Shown: one piece after another, positions 3,103-10,273 of the stretch
Position numbering within the stretch: the first letter of the stretch is position 1
Layout: each line of letters opens with the position of its first letter
From: a virus
DNA: 41,105 nt
IMG/VR virus record: IMGVR_UViG_3300025687_000105
Span: 1-41,105 of that record
Direction: 5' to 3' (one strand)
Made by a program: the position numbers and the translations under genes
The notes under the pieces: generated by a model
Databases searched by the model: none
What the model was told of the DNA's origin: nothing
The model's input: the letters and a program-made list of their open reading frames with translations, nothing else

Positions 3103-3336
3103 CTACTTTGAACGGAGAGCGCCAAACACAAACATGCCAACCACGGCCAGTACCGCGACAACAACCGTTTGCCAGCGCACCTGCCCCGCCATAATTTGCG
3201 CAGCAAGCATCACCTCGCACACCAACGCCAAGAGCATGTAGCCGAAGATAATCCAGTCAACCCACGTCCAGCCACAGGCGATGCGTGAGGCGCGGCAGTT
3301 GGGGGCGATGGGGTGTATGTCGTTGGTGCATTTCAT
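3103..3336 (-). CDS. small membrane protein
   Basis: 77 aa. Two hydrophobic stretches look like membrane helices: about residues 25-48 (VDWIIFGYMLLALVCEVMLA) and 55-74 (WQTVVVAVLAVVGMFVFGAL). The N-terminal 20 residues are polar with two cysteines. The start codon overlaps the GHKL gene stop as ATGA, so the two are translationally coupled. No family recognised; position does not indicate a lysis role. Confidence 0.55.
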   Translation of the reverse strand: MKCTNDIHPIAPNCRASRIACGWTWVDWIIFGYMLLALVCEVMLAAQIMAGQVRWQTVVVAVLAVVGMFVFGALRSK

Positions 3337-4676
3337 TTCATCAACCTTTCCATTTCAAACAACGTTCGGTCGAGGCGGTCCATAAGCCAGTTTTGCAGGT
3401 CGATAGAACAGTCCGGCTTGTCGGTGATGTAGTGGATGGCTTCTTCAAGACACGTCACGCGCTCTTCGCGCGAACCGATGATGTCCTCGTTCACGTACAC
3501 CGTTCCGTTCGCGTAGAAGCCGTTGCGCCGCCCGCCTTCTTCGGTTCCAACCTCACGGAACACCACGACGGGCGGGCGGTCTTTGCTGTCCGTGAACCCG
3601 AGCAGATCAAGGCAATCCCAAACATGGTTGAATTGCGGGGCCGTTGCGTCTGGAATGACCTGCATCGGCGTGCGGTCTGATTCGTCTAATATTTCATCAT
3701 GCGTCTTAATCCCAACGGCGCGAAACAATTTGAACCACGTAGAGGGAAACGGCTTGGGCGCATAGCCGCGCTTAATCAACTTTTCGTACAGGTGGTGTGT
3801 CGGGTAGCAGGCGACAGCACCATCGCCGAACGCCTTATCCCATGCCTCTTGCCAATCACTGGCTTTTGAGTACGACTTTGCCAATGCCGCCGCCGTCGAT
3901 GGGTTGAAGTGCTTGCCCTCGAATAGCGACTCAAACTCAGGCTGCTGTGACGCGATGAGCAAGCGGGCAATGACGCTGGATGGTGCGATCGCGACCAGTA
4001 TCGCCATTTCAGAATGCACCTCATACCACGAACACGACCGGCTTTCATTGAGGCTGAGTTTCCGCATTTCGTAGTCAAACAGCGACGGTTCTTCGCTTTC
4101 CTGAACCCACACGCCACGGTGAAAAATCTGGCATGACGGGTTACCGTTCTTCGCGTAGATGTCGCCGTGGTAGCTGTCGCGCCATAACGGTTCGCGGTTC
4201 GACAGCATCATCAGTCGCTTCGGTAACTGCGAATAGCTTTCGAGAATGTCAAAGTCGGCTTCGACATAAACCCGCGTCGCGCCAGCCACACCATGCACGT
4301 CGCTTGTCACTTCATGGTGAAGATCGTCGATACCCTCGTCGATGGCGTTGCAGGTAATCTCACGCAGCGCCTGCCACGGTTCAGTCCAGTCCCTCTGGCC
4401 GAAGTTGACGTGCAGGTTCATCGCCTGCCAGTCGCCATCACCGACGCGGAACATGATTTCGCGTTCGCCGTCCACGTCCTGCGCCTCGAACGAAATAGGT
4501 GTTTCGCCGGAATAGATGGTTAGTGCGACACCTCGGCGCGCGAGTAACGCGATAGCCTCTTTCAAGCCTGTTCCAAACTGTCCGATTTGTTCATCGGATT
4601 TGTTCGACATGCCGAGCAGGCGCACCCCGCGAAGGGGAATCTCGCCACGGTTTTGAATCATCACGTACTGCGTCAC
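3333..4676 (-). CDS. GHKL/HATPase-like protein with apparently permuted motifs
   Basis: 447 aa, GTG start coupled to the upstream stop as GTGA, with GGAGGTGG 3 nt before it. Residues 21-47 (LLGMSNKSDEQIGQFGTGLK then EAIALLA) match the G-rich ATP-lid motif of GHKL ATPases (MORC, Hsp90, MutL). Residues 106-113 (EITCNAID) fit the N-box ExxxNAxD that binds Mg-ATP, but the N-box normally precedes the G-box and here follows it by about 65 residues. The C-terminus has CLEEAIHYIT then DCSIDLQNWLMDRL, resembling an ExxH-type metallopeptidase-like end without the usual first His. Function unknown; a conformational ATPase is inferred. Confidence 0.55.
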   Translation of the reverse strand: MTQYVMIQNRGEIPLRGVRLLGMSNKSDEQIGQFGTGLKEAIALLARRGVALTIYSGETPISFEAQDVDGEREIMFRVGDGDWQAMNLHVNFGQRDWTEPWQALREITCNAIDEGIDDLHHEVTSDVHGVAGATRVYVEADFDILESYSQLPKRLMMLSNREPLWRDSYHGDIYAKNGNPSCQIFHRGVWVQESEEPSLFDYEMRKLSLNESRSCSWYEVHSEMAILVAIAPSSVIARLLIASQQPEFESLFEGKHFNPSTAAALAKSYSKASDWQEAWDKAFGDGAVACYPTHHLYEKLIKRGYAPKPFPSTWFKLFRAVGIKTHDEILDESDRTPMQVIPDATAPQFNHVWDCLDLLGFTDSKDRPPVVVFREVGTEEGGRRNGFYANGTVYVNEDIIGSREERVTCLEEAIHYITDKPDCSIDLQNWLMDRLDRTLFEMERLMK

Positions 4677-4753
4677 AGGCCACCTCCCGCAATCTCATCC
4701 CACTCCGGCGCGTTTGGATCGTCAACGATTCTTTGTGCTTGTTTCAAGTTCAT
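4673..4753 (-). CDS. 26-aa small protein
   Basis: A 26-codon frame beginning MNLKQAQRIV and ending EWDEIAGGGL. ATG 4753-4751 follows GAAGGGTAATAAC, a copy of the element found before many accessory genes. Its stop overlaps the GTG of the GHKL gene, and its end encodes the GGAGGTGG ribosome site for that gene. It could be a leader peptide for translational coupling rather than a functional protein. Confidence 0.45.
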   Translation of the reverse strand: MNLKQAQRIVDDPNAPEWDEIAGGGL

Positions 4754-4757
4754 GTTA

Positions 4758-5108
4758 TTACCCTTCGTGAAGCGCCAAGTCTGCGCGTTGATCCTCTGAT
4801 TCCGTTTGCGGGTCAACCGCAAGCATGTCATCCAGTTCAATTTCCATGAAACCCTGCACAAACGCATCGACCGCCTGCTGGTCAATCGACGGGAGCATGA
4901 GGTAGCAATCCACCTCATCGTCATTCAGTACGGGGCAGCGGAGGTAGGCGTGGGCTGTGAAGTCAAGCACCTGGCCGTCGATCCTCTCGCCGTACTTGCG
5001 GACGTACGTGGGCGGTCGATAGGTAACGTCGGCGGTGATGTATGCGCCGACGCCGCCGGATAGGGGGTGGCTGATGCCTATGTCGAAGGTTTTGGTGATG
5101 CGGTTCAT
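4758..5108 (-). CDS. hypothetical protein
   Basis: 116 aa, acidic. The first half is predicted beta-rich (GGVGAYITADVTYRPPTYVR, about residues 18-37); the second half is strongly acidic (GFMEIELDDMLAVDPQTESE). No family recognised. The ATG overlaps the CsrA stop as ATGA. The TAA stop lies inside the GAAGGGTAAT element preceding the 26-aa gene, so translation of this gene runs straight into that initiation site. Function unknown. Confidence 0.55.
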   Translation of the reverse strand: MNRITKTFDIGISHPLSGGVGAYITADVTYRPPTYVRKYGERIDGQVLDFTAHAYLRCPVLNDDEVDCYLMLPSIDQQAVDAFVQGFMEIELDDMLAVDPQTESEDQRADLALHEG

Positions 5109-5293
5109 TTTGCACCACCCTTCACAGCGTCAACTTCTTCCCGGTCGATCCTGACGTTGCGCGGGAGGTCAAAGCCGATGGACGCCTTGTTCATTGTCCG
5201 AACCTCTGACAGCACTACCTTGCCGATCAGTTCCCCGGTATCTGCCCGTCGCAGGATTACCGATTCGCCGACGTGTCGCTCAAGTACGAGCAT
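5105..5293 (-). CDS. csrA: CsrA-family RNA-binding regulator
   Basis: 62 aa, the family's usual size. It begins MLVLERHVGESV, matching the CsrA beta-1 strand MLxLxRxxGE with Leu4 and Arg6, and ends NVRIDREEV, matching the beta-5 motif VxVHREE whose Arg contacts RNA. The middle (ADTGELIGKVVLSE) has a few extra residues relative to E. coli CsrA. CsrA dimers bind GGA motifs in RNA loops and control translation or stability. ATG preceded by GGAAGGAATCCC. Encoded early in the operon, it may remodel host translation or act on phage RNAs, such as the candidate small RNA at 6051-6128, which contains GGA triplets. Confidence 0.8.
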   Translation of the reverse strand: MLVLERHVGESVILRRADTGELIGKVVLSEVRTMNKASIGFDLPRNVRIDREEVDAVKGGAK

Positions 5294-8321: not shown

Positions 8322-8954
8322 TTATTTTGTCCAAGTCAACAACGCGACGCCAGCAGCCGTACCCTCGGCCTTAAACGATCCGGCGGGCAATTCCTGCCAT
8401 GTATCGACGATCGGGCGAAGGTGTTTATTCTGCCTCACGCCATTAAAGCACAGCGAAATCAACACCCCGCCAGGCTTGAGCATGGCGAAGGCGTGGCGAA
8501 TGTGCTTAATATCGCGGCCTTGCTTAAACGGTGGATTCATAATCACGCCGTCGAATAAGCCGCCAAGCCTTCCCGCGTCACAGGCCAGAAAATCGGCCTG
8601 TACGAGCCTATCGCCGGTTTGCTCGCTCTGGCGGTAGAGTTCGGCGCAACACTCTGGCGATGATTCGACCATAACAATCGGCCCTAAGCCGTGACGACGT
8701 GCGGACCTGCAAAGCCTGCCAAGCCCGGCCGACGGTTCGAGGACGCGCCCGCCTGCCGGGATTAACCCGGCAAGCGTGGCGGCCATGTCTGCGGCGATAT
8801 CTTCGGGCGTCTGAAACAGGTTAAAGCTGGATATCGCGCGGGTCGGTTCTTCCCCGGCGATCCGGGCGAACCTATCACGCTCCCGGCTCATCGCTTCACC
8901 TGCGGCGTCGTTTTGGTCGCGGAGGTGTAATAATCGCAGTTTGCCAGTATTCAT
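8322..8954 (-). CDS. SAM-dependent methyltransferase with NPPF motif (DNA adenine-type)
   Basis: 210 aa. SAM-binding loop VLEPSAGLGRL at residues 71-81 and catalytic NPPF at 140-143, preceded by the motif II acidic VMVESSP at 94-100. NPPF is the signature of N6-adenine or N4-cytosine amino-methyltransferases (and some RNA/protein glutamine MTases). There is no obvious target-recognition domain, so it is a compact catalytic module. The ATG overlaps the stop of the DUF3560 gene as ATGA, so the two are made together, possibly as partners. Likely role: phage DNA modification against restriction. Confidence 0.75.
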   Translation of the reverse strand: MNTGKLRLLHLRDQNDAAGEAMSRERDRFARIAGEEPTRAISSFNLFQTPEDIAADMAATLAGLIPAGGRVLEPSAGLGRLCRSARRHGLGPIVMVESSPECCAELYRQSEQTGDRLVQADFLACDAGRLGGLFDGVIMNPPFKQGRDIKHIRHAFAMLKPGGVLISLCFNGVRQNKHLRPIVDTWQELPAGSFKAEGTAAGVALLTWTK

Positions 8955-10240
8955 ACCTTCACCGCCTCGGCTTGTTCCGCTGGCGATGCTGCGGGTAGCG
9001 GCTTCTGCGGCTTGTCGGTGATGACGATGACGCGATAGCAGTCATTGTGATAAATCCGACGAACCTTGCACGCTGCGCCGTCGGGCGTGTTGCCGCAATA
9101 CTTGCGATGGGTGGGCTTGCCGGTTTCGTCGATATAAACGGGCTTAGCGGGCGAATACGTGCCTTTGCTCAAGGCGCTGTACTGGGCTTGAGTCATGCGG
9201 AACACTTCGCCGGGCTTGTCTTGGCTCATCCATGACGGTTTAGTGTTCCATGCCGCCTGGATGCGCTCGGCGTCCTCATCGGTGGGGTTAATGAGTTTGG
9301 GCGATTTGGCGTTGCGGGCTTTGGTTTTCGCCTTGCTCGCCTTTGTAATCTCGGCCAATTCTGCGAGCGATTCCGGGGTGGGCGGTGTGTAAACGCTTTC
9401 ACCGAACCGCTGCACGTTGATAAGCAGGGTATTGCCGCGGCGTCGATAATCCCACCCTTCGCCCTCTTGCTTTGGCGCGTGAACATTGACGGAAACAACC
9501 GCGCCTGTCGCGTTGGATTTGTTTACTTTGGTAATCAGGTGGCTCCCCAGCTTCCCGCCTGGCTTCATTTCGACATCGCCAGCGCTCCCGCCTTCGTTGG
9601 CGAGCATGGCACGCTCATATTCGAGGCGCAAGTTAAAATGCGCATCCCATCGCGGCGAATGCTTGCCCCATCGCCTCTGATCGGCCTCAAGCCTCAAAAT
9701 GCGAAGGCGTCGAGTTCTGGCGTCTGATTTGTGCAGTGCGTGGCTGATCACGCCGGCGGTGCGGTATTGCCAATACTCGGCCTTGGCCCATTGGCTGCAA
9801 GCCTTGCCGCCGATGCGGTCGCGTCTCGCTGCTGCGCGTTCGGCCTTGGCTGCGTTCTGGTGGCCGTAGGCGTCCGGGCTGGCTTCGTAGGTGTCGGCGA
9901 AGCCGTGAGCCTCTGCGCGTCGTTTCTCGCGGTACATGGCGAAGCGTTCGGCGCGATCGGCTGCGCGATCCTCTGGCGTTTCGTCTTCGTCGCCGATGTC
10001 GTCGCCGTCTGCGATCATCATAAATGCGGCATCTTCAGCGCGAGGCGACCACGTAGCTACAAAGCTGCACGATTGCTTTGGTGTGGCTTTGTAGCCGATG
10101 GCGCGAAGCCAAAGAAACGTGCTGCGCTCGACTCGATCCGTATAAAGCCGGATTTTATTGTCCTCTGGGCAGTACGTCGCGCTATAGCCTTCGTTGCATA
10201 GGTCTGTTTCGTCCGGTTTCATGGTTTCATCCTTGCCCAT
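8951..10240 (-). CDS. DUF3560 domain protein
   Basis: 429 aa from ATG 10240. The N-terminal ~140 residues match DUF3560: ATYCPEDNKIRLYTDRVE, then an FVATWSPRAEDAAF-like segment, an acidic stretch, and RAADRAERFAMYREKRRAEA. The middle is strongly basic/helical (ARRDRIGGKACSQWAKAEYW). The C-terminal third holds repeats of Lys/Ala-rich linker and a conserved CGNTPDGAACKVRRIYHNDC segment that could bind zinc. DUF3560 proteins occur on plasmids and phages beside antirestriction and methyltransferase genes; here the partner is an NPPF methyltransferase. Start chosen for the directly preceding TTGAAGGGTAATCAG element. Confidence 0.65.
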   Translation of the reverse strand: MGKDETMKPDETDLCNEGYSATYCPEDNKIRLYTDRVERSTFLWLRAIGYKATPKQSCSFVATWSPRAEDAAFMMIADGDDIGDEDETPEDRAADRAERFAMYREKRRAEAHGFADTYEASPDAYGHQNAAKAERAAARRDRIGGKACSQWAKAEYWQYRTAGVISHALHKSDARTRRLRILRLEADQRRWGKHSPRWDAHFNLRLEYERAMLANEGGSAGDVEMKPGGKLGSHLITKVNKSNATGAVVSVNVHAPKQEGEGWDYRRRGNTLLINVQRFGESVYTPPTPESLAELAEITKASKAKTKARNAKSPKLINPTDEDAERIQAAWNTKPSWMSQDKPGEVFRMTQAQYSALSKGTYSPAKPVYIDETGKPTHRKYCGNTPDGAACKVRRIYHNDCYRVIVITDKPQKPLPAASPAEQAEAVKV

Positions 10241-10273
10241 CTGATTACCCTTCAATCTGAGCGTGATTAAACT

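Follow-up and report, generated by a model that had tools for sequence, protein, structure and literature searches.

The GHKL superfamily, which comprises gyrase, Hsp90, histidine kinases, MutL, and MORC, has to our knowledge always been described with the N-box first, and the RIIA proteins of T4-type phages have this canonical motif order as well. Hsp90 swaps its N-terminal strand between subunits, and its arginine loop is catalytic. In the literature within reach of our search, which largely excludes subscription papers and bioRxiv preprints, we came across no account of a GHKL fold that is permuted, nor is one described in the accessible portions of PMC7824862, PMC3710099, PMC11946847, and PMC2292703. 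Since all proteins of phage Lydia were modeled with AlphaFold 3, according to the accessible portion of PMC11946847, the protein studied here may already have been observed in that work.

The window (the whole 41,105-nucleotide stretch of viral DNA analyzed here, IMG/VR record IMGVR_UViG_3300025687_000105) encodes a protein in which the N-box follows the ATP lid. Taken alone, its Bergerat domain is almost certainly circularly permuted, and it is very probable that the protein as a whole is a permuted GHKL ATPase of the Hsp90/MORC type. Its motif order, family, and domain layout follow from sequence and prediction: the model places an S5-like middle domain after the Bergerat domain, then a helical linker, and then a minigluzincin-like domain with an EExxH motif. 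Within the Bergerat domain, the putative ancestral strand-N-box helix-strand unit appears to follow the motif I-lid-helix-three-strand unit, with the new N terminus lying in the hairpin that precedes motif I. The features of the gene are as follows, with conservation given for the 50 rows of alignment A5, that is, the window and 49 of the 103 related loci, chosen for length and diversity.

3333 to 4676, minus strand: gene of the very probably permuted GHKL/Hsp90-like ATPase with a C-terminal zincin-like domain (447 amino acids, from GTG at 4676 to the stop at 3333).
4681 to 4688, minus strand: Shine-Dalgarno sequence GGGAGGTG 5' of the GTG start, recognized by its sequence.
4641 to 4667, minus strand: residues 4 to 12, strand with an altered motif I, QNRGEIP (DSSP strand at 4 to 10; N9 in 48/50).
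4554 to 4583, minus strand: residues 32 to 41, ATP lid GQFGTGLKEA (G32, G35, G37, and K39 each 50/50).
4299 to 4433, minus strand: residues 82 to 126, relocated strand-helix-strand N-box unit, from the correspondence of its elements to canonical ones and from profile rearrangement.
4338 to 4364, minus strand: residues 105 to 113, N-box REITCNAID (R105, E106, N110, and D113 each 50/50).
4038 to 4058, minus strand: residues 207 to 213, LSLNESR, similar to the catalytic arginine loop of the Hsp90 middle domain, from HtpG loci (E211 and R213 50/50).
3360 to 3647, minus strand: residues 344 to 439, minigluzincin-like domain (VIA-align Z of 6.0 with 4jix, 5.8 with 4jiu, and 5.4 with 4qhj).
3432 to 3446, minus strand: residues 411 to 415, EEAIH, zinc-motif site with the first His replaced by Glu (E411 and E412 each 48/50, H415 49/50).

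A preliminary description, made from the sequence alone, had given this open reading frame (ORF) without its strand, which is minus. The lid it reported at residues 32 to 41 and the N-box EITCNAID it placed C-terminal to the lid, at residues 106 to 113, are found exactly there in the translation, and its EExxH-like C-terminal segment is EEAIH, located within the minigluzincin-like domain.

The order of the motifs depends on where the protein begins, and from the sequence the GTG start is sound. It is preceded by the Shine-Dalgarno sequence and overlaps the stop of the preceding ORF (GTGA), the frame upstream stays open for just six more codons before a stop, and ATG stands at this residue in a relative of 98% identity. 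Because the start is so defined, there is no space for an N-box upstream of the lid; the residues before position 31 are too few for an N-box helix and its strands. While GHKL proteins have the order N-box, motif I, lid, the window protein has motif I, lid, N-box. Its N-box conforms to ExxxNAxD and its lid (GQFGTG) to GxxGxG, whereas the motif I consensus DxGxG is replaced by NRGEI, lacking the Asp and the second Gly (G11 is kept in 42 of the 50 rows). Invariant throughout the alignment (50/50) are residues G32, G35, G37, K39, R105, E106, N110, and D113.

Profiles from Pfam, NCBIfam, and PADLOC gave no match to the window protein above their cutoffs. It is matched by PHROG 8203 (E 3.6e-31) and, over residues 3 to 61 only, by PHROG 6077 (E 1.2e-11), neither of which is given a function in PHROG, and weakly by the metallo-protease family PHROG 87 (E 0.0073). 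A sequence search of the PDB with the single protein returned weak unrelated matches only, and with the A5 profile it returned MORC2 at E 0.69, restricted to the lid region. Plasmids held no match. In a tblastn search of 50,697 phage records, 71 matched at an E value of 1e-3 or lower, all with less than 60% identity and 61 covering at least 80% of the query; the motif order was checked in part of these 71, so that not all are necessarily permuted, and weaker matches such as Cronobacter GAP31 have the canonical order. A few of these relatives are annotated as HATPase, ATP-binding protein, or metallopeptidase.

According to profile searches, relatives are encoded by 297 of 309 stretches with the lid pattern in viral_contigs, the best 80 of the 297 being taken, and by 24 of 48 such stretches in genome_contigs. 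Across the window and 103 loci, the lid is followed 71 to 86 residues on by RE[LIFVY]xxNxxD in 101 of 104 rows, which corresponds to 92 of 95 distinct sequences, 9 rows being duplicates (L026 was omitted from the count as a copy of L025). Since the 103 loci were found by the lid pattern and a permuted query, this figure describes the constancy of the order and not its frequency: the lid, and probably the lid-first order, were partly selected for, and the canonical-order relatives came from other searches. The three exceptions are L119, which when read by eye has FREAFANALD after the lid and is thus permuted, L120, which is incomplete, and L122, which is canonical. L120 (masked bases) and truncated rows were excluded from the model and the tree, and L011 (shortened C terminus) and L015 from alignment A2.

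Canonical-order members of the same family comprise L013, L014, L016 to L018, L123 to L130, and L151 to L155. In those from Vequintavirinae (W70, GAP31, and Kashira) and Vibrio phages the N-box is N-terminal (e.g., WSWWQGARELMQNAID), the motif I-lid segment and the downstream YDF..LDRDR segment are kept, and no second N-box was seen. Seven further viral loci are also canonical; L126, near identical to L125, was left unaligned. Motif I deviates in the canonical-order phage relatives as well (SRGG), and L151 has DDGPG. Both orders occur within Mesyanzhinovviridae, where Rabinowitzvirinae (YuA, MW2) are permuted and Bradleyvirinae (PaMx11, Ab18) canonical; L153:4480-5562 and L003:7998-9176 are the canonical and permuted forms in these sister subfamilies. 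The full architecture including the zincin occurs in canonical order, with HExxH, in proteins of Moorella phage MTATph1 (L151, WPA89660.1; 446 amino acids) and Exiguobacterium phage vB_EalM-132 (AYP68649.1; 437 amino acids), whose N-boxes are altered (REVLQEMFD and KEFIQNAVF).

Two proteins from metagenome-assembled genomes (MAGs) stand apart. One, from a Bacillota MAG (L122:2730-5132), has two tandem canonical GHKL domains and an HExxH zincin and is a possible model for a duplication leading to permutation. As an actual intermediate of permutation by duplication it was rejected as unproven, because its spacing does not fit (first lid at 76, second N-box at about 344) and it comes from a single low-coverage contig. 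The other, from an archaeal MAG (L119:4873-6417), combines the permuted order with an intact HExxH, so that the permutation and the loss of the first His need not occur together. No close relatives of either were found in viral_contigs.

A comparison of predicted secondary structure points to a single rearrangement. The window protein was modeled with AF2 from alignment A5 at a pLDDT of 92.6 and a pTM of 0.82, with pLDDT values below 50 only at residues 23 to 26 and 28 to 34, the latter as expected of a mobile lid; the model of canonical L129, built from 7 sequences, is weak (pLDDT 74.4). The strands (E) and helices (H) of L129 run E2-5, H18-32, E35-40, then E43-49, H55-60, H75-88, E92-97, E100-109, E114-123, then E133-139, its short helix 10-13 being left out. 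Those of the window run E4-10, H15-19, H36-47, E52-56, E59-68, E71-78, then E84-89, H100-113, E120-124, then E133-139. The two sets correspond one to one with a single strand-helix-strand block shifted, such that the N-box unit of the window (E84-89, H100-113, E120-124) matches E2-5, H18-32, and E35-40 of the canonical protein.

When alignment A5 was compared by hhalign with 12 canonical-order sequences, the native order scored 142.8, and moving the N-box unit to the front (cuts at 59 to 86) raised this to 199.3 to 205.6, while other cuts gave 113 to 133 (at 8 to 23) and 140 to 144 (at 110 to 125). Rearrangement also raised the score against the full-architecture canonical relatives (164.3 to 197.2), against L151 alone (131.6 to 155.6), and against L122b alone (90.7 to 113.9). 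The gain was small against HtpG (33.6 to 44.3, at one cut only) and near nil against MutL (29.6 to 30.7), and the single distant GHKL sequences L131, L132, L140, and L143 gave no consistent gain. The protein could alternatively be an unpermuted, degenerate GHKL fragment that lacks an N-box and carries ExxxNAxD elsewhere by chance, given that removal of the N-box alone would likewise leave motif I and the lid N-terminal and that Pfam is silent. Yet R105, E106, N110, and D113 are invariant, and the segment W..W.A.RE..CNA.DE, once moved, aligns with the canonical N-terminal N-box, which makes a chance motif barely credible.

Structural comparisons of the model agree with a permuted Bergerat domain. 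With Foldseek, all 13 PDB matches below an E value of 0.001 are TRAP1/Hsp90 (best E 1.6e-5, probability 0.99), at TM-scores that are low (0.22 to 0.29 for these top 13). VIA-align Z scores are 7.0 for TRAP1, 6.6 for HSP90B, 6.4 to 6.5 for MORC2, and 5.4 to 5.5 for GyrB, all of them 7.0 or lower, which is middling by the scale of the tool, and none reaching 8. In these alignments residue 1 of the window protein pairs with residue 80 of HSP90B and residues 54 to 60 of MORC2, whereas residue 1 of a canonical relative pairs with residue 17 of Hsp90-alpha (Z of about 10); the N-box of Hsp90 lies between these two starting points (17 and 80). The predicted structure aligns to Hsp90 and MORC from just past their N-box helix, a Bergerat fold is present by prediction, and the N-box helix (100 to 113) probably sits in the nucleotide pocket. 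The proposal of a circularly permuted Bergerat fold in the preliminary description is therefore borne out by the canonical relatives, the elements of the moved block, the profile scores, and the model alignment: the AF2 model resembles Hsp90/TRAP1 and MORC, and there is no room for another N-box before the lid.

It is also conceivable that the permuted chain forms a segment-exchanged dimer, in which each pocket is completed by the N-box unit of the partner subunit. This seems very unlikely, as the AF2 monomer model is of high confidence and the junction that a monomer needs, from E71-78 to E84-89, is local. A tree was built from 71 rows, 15 of them canonical (including both L122 domains) and 56 permuted, the permuted ones being put in canonical order beforehand; it requires one order change only (SH-aLRT 100). 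Judging from these sequences, the permutation most likely arose once. This single origin is likely but unproven, because the reordering may itself group the rows, the tree search was quick, and the branches of L119, L122b, and L152 are long.

Behind the Bergerat domain, LSLNESR in the predicted middle domain agrees with the LxLNxSR loop of the Hsp90 family and resembles the DLxLNVSR of HtpG, seen in three of the five HtpG-like loci tested (L142, L139, and L140). Some TRAP1 alignments span residues 1 to 440 of the window protein, at an rmsd above 10; residues 344 to 439 match minigluzincins, aligning to 4jix over 84 residues at an rmsd of 4.2. The window protein has EEAIH instead of HExxH. Among 94 distinct ORFs (window excluded), 78 have an [EHQD]ExxH motif, namely 75 EExxH, two HExxH (L119 and L122, both with weak SprT-like matches), and one DExxH (L101, also with EENEH at 396); the motif is absent in the other 16, several of which are truncated. 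Six permuted proteins from viral contigs (L037, L040, L046, L048, L064, and L095) end in a different C terminus without an EExxH motif. The position of the distal Glu ligand, 426 in a register set by eye from L122 and L151, is D in the window and varies among the 50 rows (14 E, 10 D, 26 others).

These observations bear on whether the domain is still a peptidase. Residues E411, E412, H415, D422, and Q428 are kept in 48 to 49 of 50 rows and are thus too constant for decay. Together with the minigluzincin-like fold and the HExxH of canonical-order L151, L152, and L122 and of permuted L119, this constancy would suit a permuted ATPase with an active peptidase, whose EExxH binds metal in an altered way and whose ATP cycle gates the cleavage of clients. 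We consider this unlikely, since among the 78 distinct ORFs with a motif match 75 have Glu for the first His ligand, and residue 426, where the third ligand (Glu) would lie, is variable.

The gene lies among the following neighbors.

3103 to 3336, minus strand: small ORF for a membrane-like protein with two helices, downstream, overlapping the stop of the GHKL gene (weak PHROG match only).
2087 to 2980: Sak4-like gene, downstream.
1580 to 2071: DUF669/SSB-like gene, downstream.
387 to 1277: replication initiation gene, downstream.
4758 to 5108: ORF without assigned function, upstream.
5105 to 5293, minus strand: CsrA homologue, upstream in the same operon (Pfam PF02599, 29.2 bits).

The Sak4-like, SSB-like/DUF669, replication initiation, and CsrA genes agree with the phage early operon suggested at the outset. 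Vibrio phage 1.122.B likewise has a CsrA gene near its GHKL gene of canonical order (L017:6479-6772). At 3.6 kb from the ATPase gene, a methyltransferase-domain gene (8322 to 8954, minus strand; PF13489, 31.3 bits) adjoins a DUF3560-like gene (8951 to 10255). In YuA and MW2 the permuted gene lies directly downstream of a primase gene. Across 100 loci no conserved neighbor was found, and the 18 most frequent neighbor families do not include the window; with at most 10 of the 100 loci sharing a family, neighbor conservation was rejected as a guide to function.

The replication neighbors in the window and the primase gene in YuA and MW2 would fit a MORC- or MutL-like DNA clamp that serves phage replication, recombination, or antirestriction and whose zincin-like domain contacts DNA-bound proteins. 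The MORC2 scores and the SprT-like matches of L119 and L122 lean the same way, with Wss1/SprT-type minigluzincins as an analogy: according to the abstract of PMC4559962, Wss1 is a minigluzincin that acts on proteins bound to chromatin. However, Hsp90 ranks equal to or higher than MORC2, no DNA-binding domain was seen, and no neighbor is constant, and we regard a DNA clamp as equally unlikely as an active peptidase.

Returning to a permuted ATPase that holds client proteins, ATP would probably be bound in the usual pocket, given that N-box and lid are intact, with the lid closing over it, and R213 of the middle domain would complete the active site for hydrolysis. The nucleotide state would drive clamp-like opening and closing, as in Hsp90 and MORC. 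The strand that Hsp90 swaps has no free end here, being attached on both sides, and the clamp should therefore close without exchange of N-terminal strands. A client protein would probably be held by the C-terminal domain rather than cut by ordinary zinc chemistry. Such a client-holding clamp is a tentative proposal that we hold with somewhat less than even confidence. It is doubtful whether the more far-reaching reading applies, in which a widespread natural permutation created an ATP-gated clamp free of strand exchange that drives a repurposed EExxH zincin on phage or host clients.

The permutation suggests why standard domain models miss this family. Many hypothetical phage genes could be annotated as ATPases, and motif searches that take order into account may find more.

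Among known systems, the Hsp90 family (HtpG, TRAP1, HSP90) shares with the window protein the lid IGQFGxG, an ExxxNAxD-like N-box, the S5-like middle domain with its LxLNxSR loop, and the best structural matches. The window protein differs in its permuted Bergerat order, in having Asn for the Asp of motif I, and in a C terminus that is minigluzincin-like and was not recognized as an Hsp90 C-terminal domain. MORC proteins, including prokaryotic ones, likewise have a GHKL domain followed by an S5-like module, and the MORC2 lid IGQYGNGLKS was aligned by HMMER; in contrast to them, the window protein is permuted, no CW finger was recognized by Pfam, and no restriction-modification operon was seen. 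T4-type RIIA, found by structure search of BFVD, is also a phage GHKL protein but is much longer and has another C terminus. Minigluzincins (abylysin, jannalysin, and selecase) match the fold of residues 344 to 439 at Z of 5.4 to 6.0 but have HExxH where the window has EExxH. PaMx11 gp71, Ab18 ORF34, GAP31_101, and NVP1122B_56 of Vibrio phage 1.122.B share the sequence family and the middle domain; their N-box comes first, and the aligned ones are without the zincin domain. From the range over which PHROG 6077 matches the window protein, these canonical-order phage relatives would belong to that family. The Moorella (WPA89660.1) and Exiguobacterium (AYP68649.1) phage proteins share the length class and the full architecture including the zincin and differ in canonical order, intact HExxH, and altered N-box. 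Permuted and full-length canonical phage proteins of this kind form natural pairs for asking where in the Hsp90 cycle a free N-terminal strand is needed.
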